From an uncultured Mucilaginibacter sp. (GTDB lineage: Bacteria > Bacteroidota > Bacteroidia > Sphingobacteriales > Sphingobacteriaceae): a DNA stretch of 64,000 bases. The notes under the pieces are model-generated. The model saw nothing but the letters and a program-made list of their open reading frames with translations, was not told the origin of the DNA and did not search any database. The position numbers and the translations under genes are program-made. How positions within the stretch are numbered: position 1 is the first letter of the stretch; every line of letters begins with the position of its first letter. The DNA lies in NCBI GenBank assembly GCA_903866915.1, contig CAIPPO010000080.1, positions 1 through 64,000 on the forward strand. Direction: 5' to 3'. Positions 2,559 to 19,274 of this stretch are shown one piece after another.

Positions 2559-3119
2559 CTATTTGTTGTAGCGGGTCATTGTCAATTCGGTACCCGCCGT
2601 GGTAAAACTTTTTATTATTTCGATAGAACGGTCAATTAGGGCCGGAAGCTCAGGCAGTTCGTCGTCATCAAACCCGCTTAGCACATAATCAACCTGGCGG
2701 CCCTTGGGGAAATTATCGCTCACACCAAATCGAAGCCGTGCGTAATTATTATGACCGAGCGTGAGTTCGATATGCTTTAGCCCGTTATGCCCGGCGGCGC
2801 TGCCTTTAGGTTTCAGACGCAGCGTGCCCAAGGGTAACGCGATATCATCTACAATAACCAGCACATTTTCAATCGGTATCTTCAACTCCTGCATCCAGTA
2901 ATTGAGCGATTTACCGCTCAAATTCATATAAGTAGTGGGCTTCACCAGAAAGAGCGAGCGCCCCTTATAATTCATTTCGGCGTAGTAGCCCAGGCGCATG
3001 TTATAGAATTTGGCATTTTCCTGTTTTGCCAGCTCGTCCAACACCATAAAGCCAATATTATGCCGGGTATCGGCATATTCCTGCCCTATATTTCCTAAAC
3101 CGACGATGAGGTATTTCAT
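2559..3119 (-). CDS. pth: Peptidyl-tRNA hydrolase
   Basis: A 186-aa protein of normal Pth length that cleaves peptidyl-tRNAs released from stalled ribosomes, recycling tRNA in the cytoplasm. Visible signatures are GLGNIGQEYADTRHNIGF (catalytic His about residue 21), KPTTYMNLSGKS, VDDIALPLGTLRL (catalytic Asp) and KGSAAGHNGLKHI. It lies directly downstream of rplY, an order common in bacteria, but a hairpin with an A tract at 3174-3204 suggests that rplY transcripts partly end before it. Confidence 0.97.
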   Translation of the reverse strand: MKYLIVGLGNIGQEYADTRHNIGFMVLDELAKQENAKFYNMRLGYYAEMNYKGRSLFLVKPTTYMNLSGKSLNYWMQELKIPIENVLVIVDDIALPLGTLRLKPKGSAAGHNGLKHIELTLGHNNYARLRFGVSDNFPKGRQVDYVLSGFDDDELPELPALIDRSIEIIKSFTTAGTELTMTRYNK

Positions 3120-8081: not shown

Positions 8082-9794
8082 TTACGCTACCTTCTTCAAC
8101 GTAAAGTAAAACCTGCTTCCCCCTCCAAGATCGCTTTCGACATTGATTTTGCCTGATTGAGCCTCAATAAAATCTTTAGCAATGGCCAGGCCCAAACCAG
8201 TGCCGGTTTGTTCTGCTTTTGAACCGGGTACTTTAAAATATCGTTCAAAAATTCTGGGCAGGTATTTAGCCTCGATACCCTGCCCGTGATCGGTTACCGA
8301 AAACTCGACATCGCTACCCTTTCCTCGTTTTACCACCAGATCGACCGAGGAACGCTCGTGACTATACTTTATCGCGTTAGACAGGAGGTTGATCAATACC
8401 CAGGTTGTTTTGTCGAGATCGGCCCTAACTTCAGGTAAATTCTCTTCATAGCTGACGCTGATGGTAACCTGTTTTTGTTCGGCTGTAAATTTTACTGCCT
8501 TAACAGCATAATCAACAATATTTTGTGGATGAGTACTGCCGAAATTGAGATTCAGTTTACCGGTTTCAACCTGCGCCATATCCAGCAATTCGCCGGTAAT
8601 CTGCAAAAGCCTGCGGGTATCATCGTCAATATTACCGAGTAGCTGGCGCTGTTCGGTGTTAACCTGCCCGATCCGATCGTCTTCCAATAGTTTCAAACTC
8701 ATCTTGATTGAGGAAATGGGCGTTTTCAACTCATGCGAAATGGTTGCTATAAAATTAGTTTTGGCCTCATCCAATTGCTGGAATTCGGTAATATTTTTCA
8801 GGATAATCACTTTACCGATAATCCTGTCCTCACTCGTTACCGACAATATTTCTTTAGAGAAATAGCTTTCGCGGTTATCAGCAAATATTTTCATTTTATG
8901 CTGGTCATTTACTAAAAGATTGCGTAGCAGATCGTTTTCGAGCGCTATATCTGGTGCATATTTACCGGTCAGCTTTTCTGCGGGCAGGCCAATGAGTGAG
9001 CAGGCAACCTCATTAACAAATATAATCAATGAGCGTTCGTCAAGGCCTATTATCGCATCGTGCATTGAGTTGATGATAGTCTCAATCCTTTTCTTTTCAA
9101 ACATGATACTGGCCAGGTTGCTATGTTCATACTCATCGAGTTTAAAGGTCATGGTATTGAAGGCCTGGGCCAACTCACCAAACTCATCATTCGATTTAAA
9201 ATCTAGCTGCTGATGATAGTTACGGTTGGATATTTCTTTGATCCTTTCGGTAAGCTCTTTAATAGGATCGGCAACATAACCGGGGAAATTGATGATAAAA
9301 GTAAATGCCACAAGGAACAGAAAGGAAGCGATGATTCCGACCAGTAGCGTCGCATTGGCGGCCGTTGCTTTGGCAACCACGTTTTTATGTTCTTCGGCAT
9401 CCATATTAAGCTTCATGATCTTGTATAAAAACTTACGTATCTCGGCCCTAAGTGAAATTAGCCTCGCCGGGCTGTTATTCAAAAGTTTTAATTGCTCGTA
9501 TTTGGAGCGCAGCGAGTCGGTAGCCTGTTGTTCACCGGGCTCGGTAATATTATGCTCTTGCTTAACGAGGTTGGATTCTATTGTTTTGATCTGCGTGGTG
9601 TTCAGTTCACCCGAATTCTCGTCAATCACCACACCAATATTGCGCATGTAAACAATTGTCTCGTGATTATCCTTCAAAATAAGGCTGCTATCGTCCGACA
9701 AGCGATTAAGGTAATAAATAGACAATCCGCTGCACACAAAAGCCAGCAGGAAGAGGAATCCGAAACCTGCTCGTAGTTTATTTTTTATAGTCAT
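8082..9794 (-). CDS. Membrane sensor histidine kinase paired with KdpD-like protein
   Basis: A 570-aa kinase: TM helix about 10-29, extracytoplasmic region 30-145, TM about 147-170, HAMP about 172-225, PAS about 235-340, HisKA with ISHELKTPI (phospho-acceptor His354), and HATPase (LINLLSNAIKYSHE N-box, DHGQGIEAKYLPRIFERYF, GTGLGLAIAKDF). Its ATG overlaps the TGA of the upstream KdpD-like gene by 4 nt, indicating translational coupling. It therefore supplies the kinase module that a full-length KdpD would carry at its C-terminus, most likely responding to K+ or turgor. The cognate response regulator is not adjacent; the NtrC-type protein at 17928-19274 is the best candidate. Confidence 0.9.
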   Translation of the reverse strand: MTIKNKLRAGFGFLFLLAFVCSGLSIYYLNRLSDDSSLILKDNHETIVYMRNIGVVIDENSGELNTTQIKTIESNLVKQEHNITEPGEQQATDSLRSKYEQLKLLNNSPARLISLRAEIRKFLYKIMKLNMDAEEHKNVVAKATAANATLLVGIIASFLFLVAFTFIINFPGYVADPIKELTERIKEISNRNYHQQLDFKSNDEFGELAQAFNTMTFKLDEYEHSNLASIMFEKKRIETIINSMHDAIIGLDERSLIIFVNEVACSLIGLPAEKLTGKYAPDIALENDLLRNLLVNDQHKMKIFADNRESYFSKEILSVTSEDRIIGKVIILKNITEFQQLDEAKTNFIATISHELKTPISSIKMSLKLLEDDRIGQVNTEQRQLLGNIDDDTRRLLQITGELLDMAQVETGKLNLNFGSTHPQNIVDYAVKAVKFTAEQKQVTISVSYEENLPEVRADLDKTTWVLINLLSNAIKYSHERSSVDLVVKRGKGSDVEFSVTDHGQGIEAKYLPRIFERYFKVPGSKAEQTGTGLGLAIAKDFIEAQSGKINVESDLGGGSRFYFTLKKVA

Positions 9795-10921
9795 GATAGT
9801 ATCACTAAGTCTATATCAGTTTTTGACATTTTATTCAGTAGCTGGGTGAATACCGCCGTTTTTAATAATACCTGATAGAATTTAAAATGTGGTTTACCCA
9901 TGCATATCGTTGTAATATCATATTTCTCAGCAGTTTCCCAAACTGTTTTGGCAACATTATCACTTTTTACTTTCAAAACTTCGCCGCCAAGTTGCGTTGC
10001 ATTCTTCATATTATTGATAAGGTGGCGCTGCGCCGCCAGGTTAATCTTATCTGCACTTTCATTGGCTTTCTGAACATACAACACGTACCATTTGGATCGG
10101 TAGTAGGAAGCTAACCGAGCAGTTTTTCGAATAATGATCCGCGCAGCCTCGTCATTGGTACTGATACAAGCCAGAAAAATTTCCGACTTCAATTTCACAT
10201 TTTTAGGGAGCTCAATATCAATTTTACGCTCCAATTGATGCGCAACCTCCTTCAATGCCAACTCGCGAAGTTGTAAGATGCGTTCGGATTGAAAAAAATT
10301 ATTTAGAGCGGTAGGCACTTTGGCCAGATCGTAAATTTTACCTTCTTTGAGCCTGGCGATCAATTCATCGGCGGTCAGGTCAATGTTAACCACTTCATCA
10401 GCCATCTGTAGTACTTTATCAGGTATACGCTCGTTAACGGCTGCTCCGGTGATGCGCTCTACCTCTTCATTAATGCTTTCAAGGTGCTGAATATTAACTG
10501 CACTGATTACGTTGATGCCTGCGTTCAGTATATCCATTACATCCTGCCAGCGCTTTTCGTTTTTACTGCCTTCTACGTTGGTATGAGCCAGTTCGTCGAC
10601 AATCACTACTTCGGGCCGAAGGTTGATGATCGCGTTCAGATCCATCTCCTCGAGCTCTTTTCCTTTGTAAAACAGTTTACGCCGGGGTATACACGGCAAT
10701 CCTTCCAACAAAGTATGGGTTTCCTTTCGGTTATGCGTTTCGATATACCCTATTTTTACGTCGATACCACTACGCAACAGAGCCTGCGCCTCCATCAGCA
10801 TCCGGTAAGTTTTACCCACACCGGCGCTCATGCCGATATAGATCTTAAACTTGCCGCGCCTCGATTTTTTGATCAGTTCGAGAAAATGTTGTACCGATTC
10901 TTTGTTGTCAGCTTCATCCAT
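9791..10921 (-). CDS. kdpD: Short KdpD: N-terminal KdpD sensor domain plus Usp domain
   Basis: A 376-aa protein covering only the cytoplasmic N-terminal half of KdpD. The KdpD domain (about 22-230) has the Walker-A-like GMSAGVGKTYRM (30-41), GYIETHNRKET, VIVDELAHTNVEGS and NVQHLES-type NIQHLESINEEV. A universal-stress-protein-like domain follows (about 250-376; ends MSKTDIDLVILS). The four TM helices, GAF, HisKA and HATPase domains of E. coli KdpD (894 aa) are absent; the kinase is encoded by the next gene with a 4-nt overlap. It lies downstream of kdpC after a hairpin at 10958-10981. Role: input module for control of the Kdp K+ pump. Confidence 0.92.
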   Translation of the reverse strand: MDEADNKESVQHFLELIKKSRRGKFKIYIGMSAGVGKTYRMLMEAQALLRSGIDVKIGYIETHNRKETHTLLEGLPCIPRRKLFYKGKELEEMDLNAIINLRPEVVIVDELAHTNVEGSKNEKRWQDVMDILNAGINVISAVNIQHLESINEEVERITGAAVNERIPDKVLQMADEVVNIDLTADELIARLKEGKIYDLAKVPTALNNFFQSERILQLRELALKEVAHQLERKIDIELPKNVKLKSEIFLACISTNDEAARIIIRKTARLASYYRSKWYVLYVQKANESADKINLAAQRHLINNMKNATQLGGEVLKVKSDNVAKTVWETAEKYDITTICMGKPHFKFYQVLLKTAVFTQLLNKMSKTDIDLVILS

Positions 10922-11049: not shown

Positions 11050-11619
11050 TTAATGTTTTTGCAGCTCATCAAGTGCTACGTTCAGCTTCAATACATTTAC
11101 TTTTGCCGGACCCATAAAGCCGAAGAGTGGTGCTTCAATATGGCTATTAACCAGGTCGGCAATCTTTTGTTCGTCCAGTTTACGGTAGAGCGCAACCCGT
11201 TTAATCTGGATCTTTGCCGCATCCGGCGATATGTCAGGATCAAGGCCGCTGCCCGATGCGGTAACCAGGTCGGCAGGAATGTCGCTGCGTTTCAAATAGG
11301 GATGATATTTCAATAGGGTATCAATTCTTTTTTCAACGTCTTTTAAGTAATCAGGATTAGTTGGTGCTTTATTTGAACCTCCTGAACCGTTAGCATTATA
11401 GCCAACTGCCGAGGGACGGCCCCAAAAATACTGAGGCTTGCTAAAATTTTGCCCGACGAGTGCATAACCAACTGTTTTACCATTTACAATAATGGGCTCC
11501 CCGTCGCCTTTGCCTGTAGACAATTTGCCTGCAAAAGCAATGAATAAGGGGTAGATCACACACAATAATACGATGAGTACAAGAGTGAGTCTAATGGATG
11601 GAACTATATACTTTTTCAT
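11050..11619 (-). CDS. kdpC: Potassium-transporting ATPase subunit C
   Basis: A 189-aa KdpC: a single N-terminal TM helix (about 8-30, LTLVLIVLLCVIYPLFIAF) and an extracytoplasmic domain with GQNFSKPQYFWGRPSAVGYN and DLVTASGSGLDPDISPDAA, both hallmarks of the family. KdpC stabilises the KdpFABC complex. The start is 6 bp after the kdpB stop, consistent with coupled translation. Confidence 0.97.
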   Translation of the reverse strand: MKKYIVPSIRLTLVLIVLLCVIYPLFIAFAGKLSTGKGDGEPIIVNGKTVGYALVGQNFSKPQYFWGRPSAVGYNANGSGGSNKAPTNPDYLKDVEKRIDTLLKYHPYLKRSDIPADLVTASGSGLDPDISPDAAKIQIKRVALYRKLDEQKIADLVNSHIEAPLFGFMGPAKVNVLKLNVALDELQKH

Positions 11620-11625
11620 GATAAT

Positions 11626-13653
11626 TTATACTACAAGTGAAACAACCAGGTCAATCAGTTTGATCCCGATAAACGGTGCAATTACGCCGCCGAAACCATA
11701 GATCAGTAAGTTACGGCGCAACAATGCGCTTGCACCAATCGGCTTATATTCGACGCCCTTTAGCGCCAGGGGTATCAACATCGGTATAATGATGGCGTTA
11801 AAGATTACAGCCGATAAGATAGCCGACTGCGGGCTATGCAGTTGCATGACATTAAGGCTTTGCAGTGCTGGAATAGAGGCAATGAACAATGCCGGTACGA
11901 TAGCGAAATATTTAGCCACATCATTAGCAATTGAAAAGGTGGTCAGCGTACCACGGGTGATAAGCAGTTGTTTACCGATCTCCACGATCTCGATCAGCTT
12001 GGTTGGGTCATTATCAAGGTCGACCATGTTACCCGCTTCTTTGGCAGCCTGGGTACCACTATTCATAGCCACACCTACGTCGGCTTGTGCCAGGGCGGGC
12101 GCATCATTGGTACCGTCGCCCATCATGGCTACCAGTTTGCCACTGTTTTGCTCGAGTTTGATATAATTCATCTTATCCTCAGGCTTAGCCTCGGCAATAA
12201 AATCATCAACACCGGCTTTATTGGCAATGTATTTTGCAGTCAAGGGGTTATCGCCCGTAACCATCACTGTTTTTACACCCATTTTACGCAGGCGCTCAAA
12301 ACGTTCTGAGATACCAGGTTTGATGATATCCTGTAGTTCGATCACACCCAATACACTTTCGTTCTGGGAAACAACCAATGGGGTACCCCCATCCGAAGCG
12401 ATCTTTTTAACCCGGTCATCTATATCTTCTGGAAAGGGATTGCCGGCACGTGTGACGATACTGCGTATAGAGTCGGATGCACCTTTGCGAATTCTTACAC
12501 CATTTTGGGTATTGATACCGCTTGAGCGTGTCTCGGCAGTGAATTTAACAAACTCAGCGCCTTCAGGTGCATTTGGCAGCTTGATCTGGGTTGATGCCAG
12601 ATCGACAATCGATTTTCCTTCCGGTGTTTCGTCGGCCAAAGAAGCCAAAACACAGGCGATAACCAGGTCATCTGGTGAAATGCCTTTAGTTGGCCAAAAC
12701 TGTGTAGCCTTACGGTTACCGATAGTAATTGTGCCTGTTTTATCGAGCAGCAAGGTGTCGATGTCGCCGGCAGTCTCAACCGCTTTGCCCGACTTGGTGA
12801 TCACATTGGCACGCAATGCGCGGTCCATACCTGCTATACCAATAGCTGATAGCAAACCTCCGATAGTTGTTGGGATCAAACAGACGAAAAGTGAGATCAA
12901 AGCAGCTATCGTTATCGGCGTATTAGCATAGGTAGCAAAAGGTTGCAGTGTAACACAAACAATAATAAAAATGAGAGTGAAGCTAGCCAGCAATATCGTC
13001 AGTGCTATCTCATTTGGTGTTTTCTGACGCGATGCCCCTTCAACAAGGGCGATCATCTTATCCAGAAAACTTTCACCGGGTTGGGTGGTTACTAGCACTT
13101 TGATCTGATCGGAAAGCACCTTGGTACCACCGGTAACTGAAGATTTATCACCACCAGATTCGCGGATAACCGGGGCAGATTCGCCCGTGATTGCCGATTC
13201 ATCAATAGTGGCTATACCTTCAATTATCTCGCCATCGGTTGGTATAGTATCGCCGGTAACACATACAAAAACATCGCCTTTGCGTAAATCACTCGATGAT
13301 TTGCTGATAATGGTGCCGTCCTCCAGCAATACATTGGCAGGTGTTTCTTCGCGGGTCTTGCGCAAACTGTCGGCTTGTGCCTTGCCGCGAGCTTCGGCTA
13401 TAGCCTCAGCAAAATTGGCGAACAATACGGTTAGCAGCAGTATAACAAATATGCTGAAATTATAGCCGAACGAACCCTGGTCGGTATGTGAGAAAGCATA
13501 AAAGCTAACGATCAGCATGATCATGGTCCCGATCTCGACGGTAAACATCACCGGGTTATGGATCATAACACGAGGATCGAGTTTTATGAATGATTGTTTG
13601 AGTGCTGTCCTTACCAGGGCAGGTTCAAATAATTTATTGGATTGATTCTTCAT
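11626..13653 (-). CDS. kdpB: Potassium-transporting ATPase ATP-binding subunit
   Basis: A 675-aa P-type ATPase of normal KdpB length that drives K+ import through KdpA. Visible: the TGES actuator loop (about 156-159), the [19 protein letters not shown]4 region, phosphorylation motif [10 protein letters not shown] (Asp304), the [12 protein letters not shown] hinge, and the C-terminal helices. The Ser of the actuator TGES loop, which E. coli phosphorylates for inhibition, is present. It lies 5 bp downstream of kdpA and 6 bp upstream of kdpC. Confidence 0.98.
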
Positions 13654-13658
13654 GGTTA

Positions 13659-15380
13659 TTAGTGCTTAAGCATTGAAAAATATTCTGCCAGCGGGCCCAA
13701 TGCCAGTGCAGGGAAATAAGACAGGGCATTCAGGATCAGGATAACCGCAAAGGTCATCACGCCGAAAGTTACCGTGTCAGTTCTAAGCGTACCTGCCGAT
13801 TCAGGTATAAATTTCTTTTGAGCCAGCAGCCCTGATATAGCGATTGGGCCTATCATGGGCAGGAATCTGCCGAAAAAGATCACTACTCCGGCGCTTACAT
13901 TCCAGAAAATATTATTGTCGGCCAAACCTTCAAAGCCGGAGCCGTTGTTGGCGTTGGATGAGGTATACTGGTACAGTATTTCTGAAAATCCATGGAAACC
14001 CGGATTGTTTAGCCATGCCGAAGGTTTAACTGCCCAATCGGCATTTGGGTAAGTGTAGAAGATATAGCACGCTAATGCCGTCCCTGCCTTAATCAGAAAA
14101 GGACTTAAAAGCGTAATAAAGGCTGCTATTTTCACCTCGCGGGCCTCAACCTTATGCCCCATAAACTCGGGCGTCCGGCCAACCATGAGGCCTGAGATGA
14201 ACACTGCGATAATTAAATAAATATAGTAGTTGAGGAATCCTACGCCATCCCCGCCAAAGAAACCATTGATCATCATAGCCAGCAATTCCCAGCAGCCACT
14301 CAATGGCATCATGCTGTCGTGCATACCGTTGACCGAACCGGTTGAAGTAACTGTTGTCAGCGTACTCCAATAAGCCGTTGCGGCTGGACCAAAACGTAAC
14401 TCCTTGCCCTCCATTGAGCCTGTGGACTGGGTAATACCCATTTTGGCTATTTCGGGATTTCCTCCTACCTCGCCAATTATTGTTGGTATCATTAGCATTA
14501 ATACGCCGGTCATCATTACGCCGAATATGATCAGGCCCAATTTCTTGCGGCGAACGAAGAATCCAAGTGCTATCACCATACCTACCGGGATAATGAACTG
14601 CGAAGTAATCTCAACAACATTGGTCAGGTAATTTGGATTTTCGAGCGGATGTGCCGAATTAGCACCAAACCAGCCGCCTCCATTGGTGCCCAGGTGTTTG
14701 ATAGCGATCATTTGCGCAGCCGGCCCACGAGACATAGTAACGGTATCACCTTGCAGGGAGATAAATTTATCTTTGCCAGCATAGCTGCTTGGTGTTCCGT
14801 TAAATGCCAGGATCAATGCGATAACTACCGAGATTGGCAACAATACCCGAGTGATTGATTTAACAAAATAGTTCCAGAAGCTACCGAGGTCGGTAGTAGT
14901 TTTATCCCTGAAAGCTTTAAATACCGCAATGGCACAAGCCATACCTGTCGCTGCGCTTGTAAAGTGCAAAAACATGAAAATGAAATGTTGGGCGAAATAG
15001 GTTGCGCCCGTTTCTCCAGAGTAATCCTGCAGGTTACAGTTAGCTACGAAACTGATAATGGTGTTAAACGAAAGGTCAGCCGTCATGCCCGGATTACCAT
15101 CGGGGTTAAGCGGCAGCTTGTCCTGGTAAATCAAGAGGAAAAAACCATAAACCAACCATAGAATATTAATGGTCATCATGGCTTTCAGAAACTGTTTCCA
15201 GTTCATGTGTTCGCTCGGGTTAATGCCGCCCAACTTGAACAGCAAATTTTCGACCGGCTTCATAAAGTCGGTCCAAACCTTTTCGCCGGCATACATTTTT
15301 GCCATATAGCGCCCCAACGCTATAGCAATGGTAAGCGTTATGCCGAAGGTTACAATTATTCCGATGAGTTCTGTGTTCAT
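13659..15380 (-). CDS. kdpA: Potassium-transporting ATPase potassium-binding subunit
   Basis: A 573-aa membrane protein of the superfamily of K+ transporters, with four selectivity-filter repeats visible as [45 protein letters not shown] and NNGSGFEGL. About ten TM helices. It binds and conducts K+ in the KdpFABC pump. The start ATG at 15380 lies 9 bp after the kdpF stop. Confidence 0.98.
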
Positions 15381-15389
15381 GATATCAGG

Positions 15390-15470
15390 TTAAAATTTTT
15401 CGGGTTTCAGCAGTACATATACCATGTAAATGAAAACTGCTATTGATGTGATGAATAATAGTGTGATCAT
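15390..15470 (-). CDS. kdpF: Potassium-transporting ATPase subunit F
   Basis: A 26-aa peptide with a single TM helix (MITLLFITSIAVFIYMVYVL) and a C-terminal KPEKF tail, the KdpF hallmark, directly before kdpA. KdpF acts as a lipid-like stabiliser of the pump. It is too short for ordinary gene callers. Confidence 0.9.
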   Translation of the reverse strand: MITLLFITSIAVFIYMVYVLLKPEKF

Positions 15471-15474
15471 GTTT

Positions 15475-15558
15475 TTAAATTTTTTCGAACCCGTCAATTG
15501 ATTTGAAAGACAGCCAGCATAAAACAATGAGTGCTGCAAAGAGATAAATGGTTAACAT
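15475..15558 (-). CDS. 27-aa membrane micro-protein upstream of kdpF
   Basis: Between the 39-aa peptide gene and kdpF, an open frame starts at ATG 15558 and ends 4 bp before the kdpF ATG. It encodes one hydrophobic helix (MLTIYLFAALIVLCWLSFKS) followed by a polar IDGFEKI tail. The tight spacing, position inside the operon and helix-plus-charged-tail design parallel KdpF. I infer that it is a second KdpF-like accessory subunit, but no characterised family is recognised. Confidence 0.6.
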   Translation of the reverse strand: MLTIYLFAALIVLCWLSFKSIDGFEKI

Positions 15559-15591: not shown

Positions 15592-15711
15592 TCAATTCAC
15601 AAAAATTTTTATCTTCAGGTAAAGAACGTAGGCTATTGCGAGAGCTAAAAACCAGACAAAGACCAGAACCAATATTTCCTTGTAATTGTACTTTTCAATA
15701 GGTCTTTTCAT
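15592..15711 (-). CDS. 39-aa membrane micro-protein, first gene of the kdp transcript
   Basis: The ATG at 15711 gives MKRPIEKYNYKEILVLVFVW, then a single TM helix (about residues 13-34) and a basic tail (KIKIFVN). An in-frame extension to 15798 exists but would prefix a low-hydrophobicity stretch. It is followed after 33 bp by the 27-aa peptide gene. The best -24/-12 promoter candidate is 52 bp upstream. It probably assists the Kdp pump or its sensing; unrecognised family. Confidence 0.5.
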   Translation of the reverse strand: MKRPIEKYNYKEILVLVFVWFLALAIAYVLYLKIKIFVN

Positions 15712-15762
15712 ATGCCCGACAGCAGTCAAAGCCTCCGGGGCCGCTCCTGATGAAACCCCATT

Positions 15763-15778
15763 TGCCAAAATGATGCCC
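15763..15778 (-). promoter_or_regulatory. Candidate sigma-54 (-24/-12) promoter for kdp
   Basis: Read on the minus strand: GGGCATCATTTTGGCA. It keeps the invariant GG and GC pairs at the required 10-nt separation and the GGCA / GCA flanks of the consensus TGGCACGN4TTGCA. It lies 52 bp upstream of the first kdp-operon ATG (15711) and about 85-140 bp downstream of a strong inverted repeat. By-eye match only. Confidence 0.4.
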
Positions 15779-15861
15779 ATGCAACCAGAAGTAGCCAAAA
15801 AATATCTATCAGCCTATAAAAAAGACTATTTTGATAATTGCCCACAGGTAGGTCAGCGAAT

Positions 15862-15905
15862 CGGAACTATCAAAATGATAGTACTTTATCAATTTGATAG
15901 TTCCG
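15862..15905. promoter_or_regulatory. 13-bp-arm inverted repeat upstream of kdp, candidate enhancer site
   Basis: CGGAACTATCAAA (15862-15874) and TTTGATAGTTCCG (15893-15905) are perfect inverse copies separated by 18 nt that themselves contain TGATA/TATCA. There is no T run. The distance of about 110 bp upstream of the -24/-12 candidate is typical of binding sites for NtrC-type activators, one of which is encoded 2 kb away. Confidence 0.55.
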
Positions 15906-15933: not shown

Positions 15934-15964
15934 AAAGAAAAGCCCCCTTTTTGCAAAGGGGGCT
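15934..15964 (-). terminator. Rho-independent terminator of the 61-aa peptide gene
   Basis: A perfect 10-bp stem AGCCCCCTTT / AAAGGGGGCT (15941-15964) with a TTGC loop, followed on the minus strand by TTTCTTTTTT. It separates the 61-aa gene's transcript from the kdp promoter region. Confidence 0.85.
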
Positions 15965-15997
15965 TGAGCATTGAAGTTAAATTATTTATGAAAAATT

Positions 15998-16183
15998 TTA
16001 GTTCAGGTGATTGGTAAGTTCATTACCTCGTATTTCAACAAGGCTACCTTCTTCATCTACCGCATAATGGGCATGGCTAACGTCACTATCAACATTCAAC
16101 GTACCTTTCTTCTTTTTAGGGCCAGCCATCGGCACCAAAATAATGGCCAGCAACGCAACTACTTCTAAAATTGTTGTAAGCAT
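15998..16183 (-). CDS. 61-aa single-TM protein upstream of the kdp operon
   Basis: The start at 16183 (MLTTILEVVALLAIILVPMA) is preferred over an in-frame start at 16216. It has one N-terminal TM helix, a KKKKG stop-transfer patch, and a polar acidic tail (VDSDVSHAHYAVDEEGSLVE). It is bracketed by a terminator at 15934-15964 and by palindromes upstream, so it is probably monocistronic. No family recognised; its position between the kdp operon and the NtrC regulator hints at a related role. Confidence 0.5.
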   Translation of the reverse strand: MLTTILEVVALLAIILVPMAGPKKKKGTLNVDSDVSHAHYAVDEEGSLVEIRGNELTNHLN

Positions 16184-17927: not shown

Positions 17928-19274
17928 TTATTCGAGCCCGTATTCCTTCAATTTCCGGTAAAGAGTTGCAACACCAATGTTCAATAGTCTCGCAGCTTCG
18001 CCCCGGTTACCATGAGTATGGTTTAATACACGCTGTATATGTAGTTTTTCTACAGATGCCAGGTCGAACGCTGAAAGCACCGTATCGGTTCGCTTACCTG
18101 CATGCTGTATTTCGTAAGGCAACAGGCTTGCTTCCAATTCATTTCCATCGCTTAAAATAACGGCCCTTTCAATTACATTCTTCAGCTCCCTGATATTGCC
18201 AGGCCACCAATAGGCTTCAATTTTTTCGATAAATGCGGGAGAAATGCTGGTCACATTTTTTTTTATTTTAGCTGCAAAGTATTGCGTAAAATAGTCCGCT
18301 AAAAGCGGTATGTCTTTTATCCTTTCGCGCAACGCTGGCAAAGTGATTTGGAAAACCGATAGTCGATAGTACAGATCGGCCCTGAAATGATTGTTTTCAA
18401 TCTCGGATAGCAGATCGCGGTTAGTTGCAGCCAAAATGCGCACATCTACCTGAGTTGGTTTGGTATCACCCACTTTCAGGAATTGCTGAGATTCGAGTAC
18501 CCGCAATAGTTTAGCCTGAAGCTCATGATCCAATTCGCCCATCTCATCCAAGAAAATAGTCCCACCATTGGCTTCCTCAAAAAGCCCTTTTTTGTCCTTT
18601 GTTGCCCCGGTAAACGATCCTGTTTTATGGCCGAACAACTCGCTTTCGAGTAATTCTTTGGTAAAAGCACTGCAGTTTACAGCAACAAAAGGTTTTCCCC
18701 GCCTGCTGCTAGCCTGGTGTATCGCTTCGGCAAATACTTCTTTACCCGTGCCAGTTTCACCCAATAATAATACTGTAGTATCTGTTTGCGCAACTTTCTC
18801 GGCCAGCTTAATGGCATCTGTTAGCGCCGATGAGCGGCCGACAATACGTTCAAAGCCCTGTTTATCATTTAACTTGCTCTCCAATTCCAGGACACGCAAC
18901 TGTAACAAAGCTTTATCCATGGCCTTACTTACGAGCGGAATAATACGCTCGTTATCGTCACCTTTGGTTATATAATCGAACGCCCCTAGTTTGATAGCTT
19001 TTACACCATCGTTTATGGTACCAAAGGCCGTAAGAACGATCACCTCGGTGCTAGGCCAGCTTTTTTTGATTTGCTCTGTCAGTTCGATCCCATTACTATC
19101 CGGCAGCTTTACATCACTTAACACTACATTCACCTGTTCGTGCTGCAATTTTCTCAAGCCTTCGCGTCCCGTCGACGCGGTAATTACCTCATATCCCTCC
19201 AGCTGCAGTATGCGCGCCATCAGGTTACGTAGCCTTTCCTCGTCGTCAATAATCAGTAGTTTGCCTTTTTGCAT
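17928..19274 (-). CDS. NtrC-type sigma-54-dependent response regulator
   Basis: The start at 19274 (MQKGKLLIIDDEERLRNLM) is preferred over 19319; about 448 aa. The receiver domain spans 1-115 with phospho-acceptor Asp54 in VVLSDVKLPD. The AAA+ domain (about 142-380) has Walker A GETGTGKE (172-179), the sigma-54 contact loop GSFTGA (219-224) and Walker B GGTIFLDE. A Fis-type HTH follows at the end (GNRGEAARLLNIGVATLYRKL). It activates RpoN promoters when phosphorylated. The gene is 2.2 kb upstream of the kdp promoter region and two genes away from it; no kdpE exists in this locus, so it is the likely partner of the 8082-9794 kinase. This is inference. Confidence 0.93.
   Translation of the reverse strand: MQKGKLLIIDDEERLRNLMARILQLEGYEVITASTGREGLRKLQHEQVNVVLSDVKLPDSNGIELTEQIKKSWPSTEVIVLTAFGTINDGVKAIKLGAFDYITKGDDNERIIPLVSKAMDKALLQLRVLELESKLNDKQGFERIVGRSSALTDAIKLAEKVAQTDTTVLLLGETGTGKEVFAEAIHQASSRRGKPFVAVNCSAFTKELLESELFGHKTGSFTGATKDKKGLFEEANGGTIFLDEMGELDHELQAKLLRVLESQQFLKVGDTKPTQVDVRILAATNRDLLSEIENNHFRADLYYRLSVFQITLPALRERIKDIPLLADYFTQYFAAKIKKNVTSISPAFIEKIEAYWWPGNIRELKNVIERAVILSDGNELEASLLPYEIQHAGKRTDTVLSAFDLASVEKLHIQRVLNHTHGNRGEAARLLNIGVATLYRKLKEYGLE

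Follow-up and report, generated by a model that had tools for sequence, protein, structure and literature searches.

A probable sigma-54 switch for the kdp potassium-pump operon in a Mucilaginibacter-type genome and its relatives in the Bacteroidota

The Kdp system, an emergency potassium pump, is the textbook case of control by KdpDE with sigma-70. In Escherichia coli, KdpE is an OmpR-type regulator that acts with sigma-70. A second arrangement is described in Desulfovibrio vulgaris, in which the NtrC-type regulator DVU3334 targets its own operon, including kdpFABC and a KdpD that is divided between two proteins, a sensor-UspA protein and a kinase (PMC3333781). DVU3334 is also listed among sigma-54-dependent regulators, with potassium uptake as its target (PMC4641369). 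The premise of the original prediction for the locus discussed here, that Kdp elsewhere is governed by KdpE and sigma-70, was accordingly too broad. The Bacteroidota are treated in the text of a comparative study of sigma-54 regulons from 2025, which makes no mention of kdp (PMC12316311). In the open literature, outside which most subscription papers lie, no paper was found that places kdp of Bacteroidota under sigma-54, and no experimental work on kdp control in this phylum was found in the literature searched. As far as these searches found, sigma-54/NtrC-type wiring of kdp has previously been reported only in Desulfovibrio.

The window, meaning the whole stretch of 64,000 nucleotides that was analysed, belongs to contig 80 of a Mucilaginibacter-type genome and carries a kdp operon on its minus strand. 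The first open reading frame past the promoter encodes a small membrane protein of 39 residues (15592-15711) and is also open in the nearest relative, the metagenome-assembled genome (MAG) L170. A second small membrane ORF of 27 residues (MLTIYLFAALIVLCW...FEKI; 15475-15558) is conserved directly before kdpF in many relatives; neither of the two ORFs ahead of kdpF has a Pfam match. These are followed by kdpF (15390-15470; Pfam PF09604), kdpA (13659-15380), kdpB, which has P-type ATPase domains and sits between kdpA and kdpC (11626-13653), and kdpC (11050-11619). Full-length KdpD with kinase domains is absent at this locus. Its place is taken by a KdpD N-terminal sensor that lacks the kinase domains (9791-10921; PF02702) and by a separate membrane histidine kinase with HAMP-PAS-HisKA-HATPase architecture (8082-9794), which stays beside the sensor gene in relatives. 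The best NCBIfam match of the sensor is NF038185, the KdpD-like non-kinase potassium sensor, at a score below the NF038185 cut-off; its nearest named relatives are from Mucilaginibacter, and identity reaches 96% in MAG L170.

Upstream of the operon, also on the minus strand, lies a gene for a response regulator (17928-19274) that combines a receiver, a sigma-54 AAA+ domain and a Fis-type helix-turn-helix; it is named KdpR here, a name coined for this analysis, and is the proposed activator, with the separate kinase as its proposed partner. The loop motif of the AAA+ domain reads GSFTGA in the window and GAFTGA in 60 of 73 cases. RpoN is encoded in the genome (PF04552, 189.5 bits). KdpR is separated from the kdp leader by an oxidoreductase gene and a 61-residue ORF (MLTTILEVVALLAIILVPMAGPKKKK...; 15998-16183), the latter having its own terminator and no Pfam match. 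The operon is a mosaic: kdpA, kdpB and kdpC are nearer one Mucilaginibacter type (L040-like), and the regulator, the KdpD sensor and the kinase are nearer another (L039-like). An assembly chimera was suspected because of this split, and was rejected on the grounds that the independent MAG L170 has an identical arrangement.

The original prediction placed a GG-N10-GC element 52 bp ahead of the first ATG, and such an element is present at 15764-15777 on the minus strand, with GG at 15777-15776, ten further bases, and GC at 15765-15764 (GG CATCATTTTG GC; wider form GGGCATCATTTTGGCA), exactly 52 bases from the ATG at 15711. Transcription is predicted to start near 15752-15754. Judged by consensus score, this -24/-12 element is uninformative, as the window holds 87 loose matches, and taken alone it is not significant: the best promoter match in shuffled leaders is equally good in about 12% of cases (p ~0.12). 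The decision therefore rests on comparison with relatives. A motif model built from relatives, with the window left out, assigns a score of 10.8 bits to the window promoter, which stands in phase with the upstream palindrome described below, and an equally good match at helically phased positions from that operator is rare in shuffled leaders (p ~0.004). In MAG L170 the element (GGGCATCATTTTGGCAA) is identical over 17 bases and the 97-bp spacing to the operator is retained; the surrounding sequence has diverged. The window has G, not T, preceding GG, which counts against the best explanation, and the alignment of GC is ambiguous by one base because -12 reads TTGGC in many relatives.

Further upstream lies an inverted repeat (CGGAACTATCAAA/TTTGATAGTTCCG) that was originally described as having perfect 13-bp arms about 110 bp beyond the promoter element. 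The perfect 13-bp arms are there, can be lengthened to 19 bp if one mismatch is allowed (15862-15880 and 15887-15905), and are centred about 107 bp upstream of GG. The whole repeat (15862-15905) makes better sense as a pair of operators in tandem, each of the form TATCA-N3-TGATA, with centres 19 bp apart; the palindromes are TATCAAATTGATA (15887-15899) and TATCATTTTGATA (15868-15880). The promoter-proximal operator, ACTATCATTTTGATAGT (15866-15882, minus strand), is centred 97 bp upstream of the -24 GG, and the distal operator, ACTATCAAATTGATAAA (15885-15901, minus strand), is 19 bp from it. A model from whose training the window was excluded scores them at 13.8 and 11.7 bits, respectively. The double site has no mismatches and is unique within the window, where 0.01 sites would be expected at three or fewer mismatches, and none of 20,000 leader shuffles produced a tandem pair.

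A palindrome between two transcription units may also be an intrinsic terminator of the upstream gene, with kdp expressed from an ordinary sigma-A promoter further down. The window copy does fold into a strong hairpin, and 62 of 77 relatives have a T-run after their palindrome, fused with it in L041, L082 and L093, for example; because of this T-run, the operator may double as a terminator of the upstream transcript in those relatives. In the window and its clade, however, the palindrome has no T-run, and the upstream transcript has a separate intrinsic terminator at 15940-15965 (minus strand). A terminator would not be expected to have a second palindrome 19-23 bp away, as is found in most relatives, or to keep helical spacing to a sigma-54 motif. 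Nor does the kdp leader offer the promoter that termination alone would call for: the Bacteroidota-type TTTG-N18..21-TANNTTTG promoter is absent from it, and its sigma-70-like matches are at chance level only. That the palindrome is simply a terminator is thus very improbable.

The reading of the palindromes as activator sites gains most from the comparison with other genomes. A search for KdpA was positive in 57 of 121 family genomes and in 86 of 296 genomes from the phylum, and 117 kdp loci were compared. Motifs were sought by expectation-maximisation from random seeds in 88 Bacteroidota kdp leaders, with the window left out; a first run caught the conserved kdpF end, and kdpF and the small ORF preceding it were then cut off. 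The search converged on the palindrome CCTWTCAWWWTGAWAGG / CCTTCCAWWWTGGAAGG (CCTWTCA-WWW-TGAWAGG / CCTTCCA-WWW-TGGAAGG), so that the palindrome for which a search of other genomes had been proposed does occur upstream of kdp in most of these 88 leaders. When the search was repeated on the DNA that follows the palindrome, it yielded TGGcAt-N5-TTGgcA, the sigma-54 consensus, which had not been supplied beforehand; the two elements occur together, in helical phase, in most of the 88 leaders. Distances from operator centre to GG fall into three classes one helical turn apart (84-88, 94-99 and 102-110 bp), with the window at 97 bp and two outliers at 61 and 73 bp. The Rayleigh z of this clustering is ~40 (n=76), or 24 after collapse to 55 distinct operator/spacing combinations, in a sample that is uneven and in which related genomes are not independent.

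The operator follows the regulator. Loci with KdpR upstream of kdpA number 72 in the sample, including the window, at identities of at least 49.8% (at a threshold of at least 50%, 70 of the 117 loci, or 71 with the window), and they always have a split KdpD where the fragment covers that region. The operator is present at 64 of these 72 KdpR-adjacent loci and at 16 of 18 split-KdpD loci in which the regulator is not upstream; these 18 were chosen by hand, and in some of them the regulator is downstream or falls outside the region compared. Genomes in which KdpR does not adjoin kdp encode it at another place, and they usually keep the operator. By comparison, the operator occurs in 0 of 13 KdpE-type loci and in 0 of 12 loci of group f17. 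The f17 loci (L148-L159) have, upstream of kdp, a kinase and a different sigma-54 regulator, the latter about 37% identical and a few kilobases away, and are possibly an independent sigma-54 wiring.

Among the 121 family genomes, a KdpR-class protein is found in 56 of the 57 that have kdpA, and no clear case is found in the 64 that do not (Fisher p ~1e-34). The sole partial case without kdpA comes from the incomplete genome G008, where a fragment with 52% identity scores 371 bits; full-length members of the class score at least 469 bits and the remaining proteins at most 349 bits. The only kdpA genome without KdpR, G067, also lacks the operator at its kdp locus (L077). This near-perfect co-occurrence bears on the proposal that a KdpE of the OmpR family, encoded elsewhere, activates kdp with the housekeeping sigma factor, and that the upstream regulator serves another operon. 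The genome does hold seven OmpR-type DNA-binding domains elsewhere, and other Bacteroidota groups (f14, f16, f19, f24, f26, f30 and f34) mostly carry full-length KdpD and KdpE (44-49% identity to E. coli). Yet no KdpE gene lies beside kdp in the window or in the KdpR-type loci examined, and full-length KdpD is missing from KdpR-type loci, which together with the co-occurrence makes control by a distant KdpE extremely unlikely.

The same genome contains a second candidate site on contig 118 (L169), in the leader of a BBP2-type porin gene, with an operator at 3008-3024, its partner at 3029-3045 and a -24 element at 2932, at a distance of 84 bp. A composite pattern of operator, spacer and GGCAY-N4..6-TGG, which was written after both sites had been seen, occurs twice in the 3.75-Mb genome, in the kdp and porin leaders, and a reversed-pattern control does not occur. 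The neighbours of the porin gene are paralogues of KdpR (RR2, 53% identical) and of the kinase in the window (50%), together with a Kup potassium transporter, and the region 1358-10931 of contig 118 is a probable second potassium regulon. In many relatives an outer-membrane barrel gene stands between kdpC and kdpD: the gap there exceeds 800 bp in 64 of 93 kdp loci, and all five that were inspected were barrel-like; the window operon has no barrel gene in this position. Taken together, these arrangements suggest that the potassium regulon extends beyond kdp.

The paralogue also raises the matter of which activator would occupy the tandem operator if sigma-54 drives kdp. The site could serve another NtrC-type regulator, for example the contig 118 paralogue, since RR2 adjoins a similar site and the central domain is complete in six sigma-54 activators encoded by the genome. 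Most kdp genomes, however, have one strong KdpR match, usually adjoining kdp, and the recognition helix of the linked regulator agrees with the operator type: A precedes TLYRK of the helix where the operator arms are TATCA, and T or S where they are TTCCA or TTTCA, in 49 of 54 loci. This agreement is suggestive, because it reflects too few independent changes on the regulator tree (about six) and is not significant by independent pairs. An activator other than KdpR is unlikely.

The preferred reading, held with high confidence, is that kdp is under a sigma-54 promoter, switched on by KdpR through the tandem operator and signalled by a split KdpD. The kdp operon would be transcribed from the promoter at 15764-15777. 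The KdpD sensor (9791-10921) and kinase (8082-9794) would together sense low potassium and, we infer, phosphorylate KdpR (17928-19274). The tandem palindromes at 15866-15901 would be the upstream activating site to which KdpR binds; looping of the DNA and hydrolysis of ATP would then allow KdpR to open the RNA polymerase-sigma-54 complex about 97 bp away. The sigma-54/NtrC-type interpretation made initially is thus supported by the presence of RpoN, the activator gene upstream, the phased operator and -24/-12 element in relatives, and the co-occurrence in family genomes. A wider proposal, which the comparisons favour with more reserve, is that in much of the Bacteroidota KdpE and sigma-70 have been replaced by a dedicated KdpR/sigma-54 pair with split KdpD, that the operator in many cases also serves to terminate the gene upstream, and that here the system has spread to a second potassium unit, in which a porin gene has its own copy of the operator and promoter and is accompanied by Kup and by a paralogous pair of regulator and kinase. 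If so, much of a large phylum would run Kdp through sigma-54, as an all-or-none, ATP-driven switch, and the responses of Bacteroidota to potassium limitation could not be inferred from E. coli. The operator code, with TATCA or TTCCA arms, would then allow a search for further potassium-regulated genes of the kind seen at the porin/Kup locus.

Compared with known systems, this wiring is not new in kind, because DVU3334 already has kdp as its target. Its extent within the Bacteroidota appears undescribed in the literature searched, as do the operator code, the helically phased layout and the additional potassium locus. The window resembles D. vulgaris DVU3334-DVU3339, a likeness of class and arrangement, in having an NtrC-type regulator linked to kdp and a split KdpD; in D. 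vulgaris, however, the regulator gene is part of the kdp operon, as are those for the sensor and the kinase, whereas in the window KdpR lies upstream. The E. coli KdpDE-kdpFABC system has the same pump and the same KdpD N-terminal sensor domain, but the window differs from it in lacking a KdpE beside kdp, a full-length KdpD and a sigma-70-like promoter above chance. The KdpDE loci of the seven other Bacteroidota groups share the phylum and the pump, but mostly combine full-length KdpD with KdpE and have no operator. Sigma-54 promoters of the NtrC/glnA type share with the proposed one in the window a -24/-12 element preceded, at about 100 bp, by tandem palindromic activator sites; in contrast to these, the window has a different operator sequence and would form part of a dedicated potassium circuit rather than of nitrogen control.
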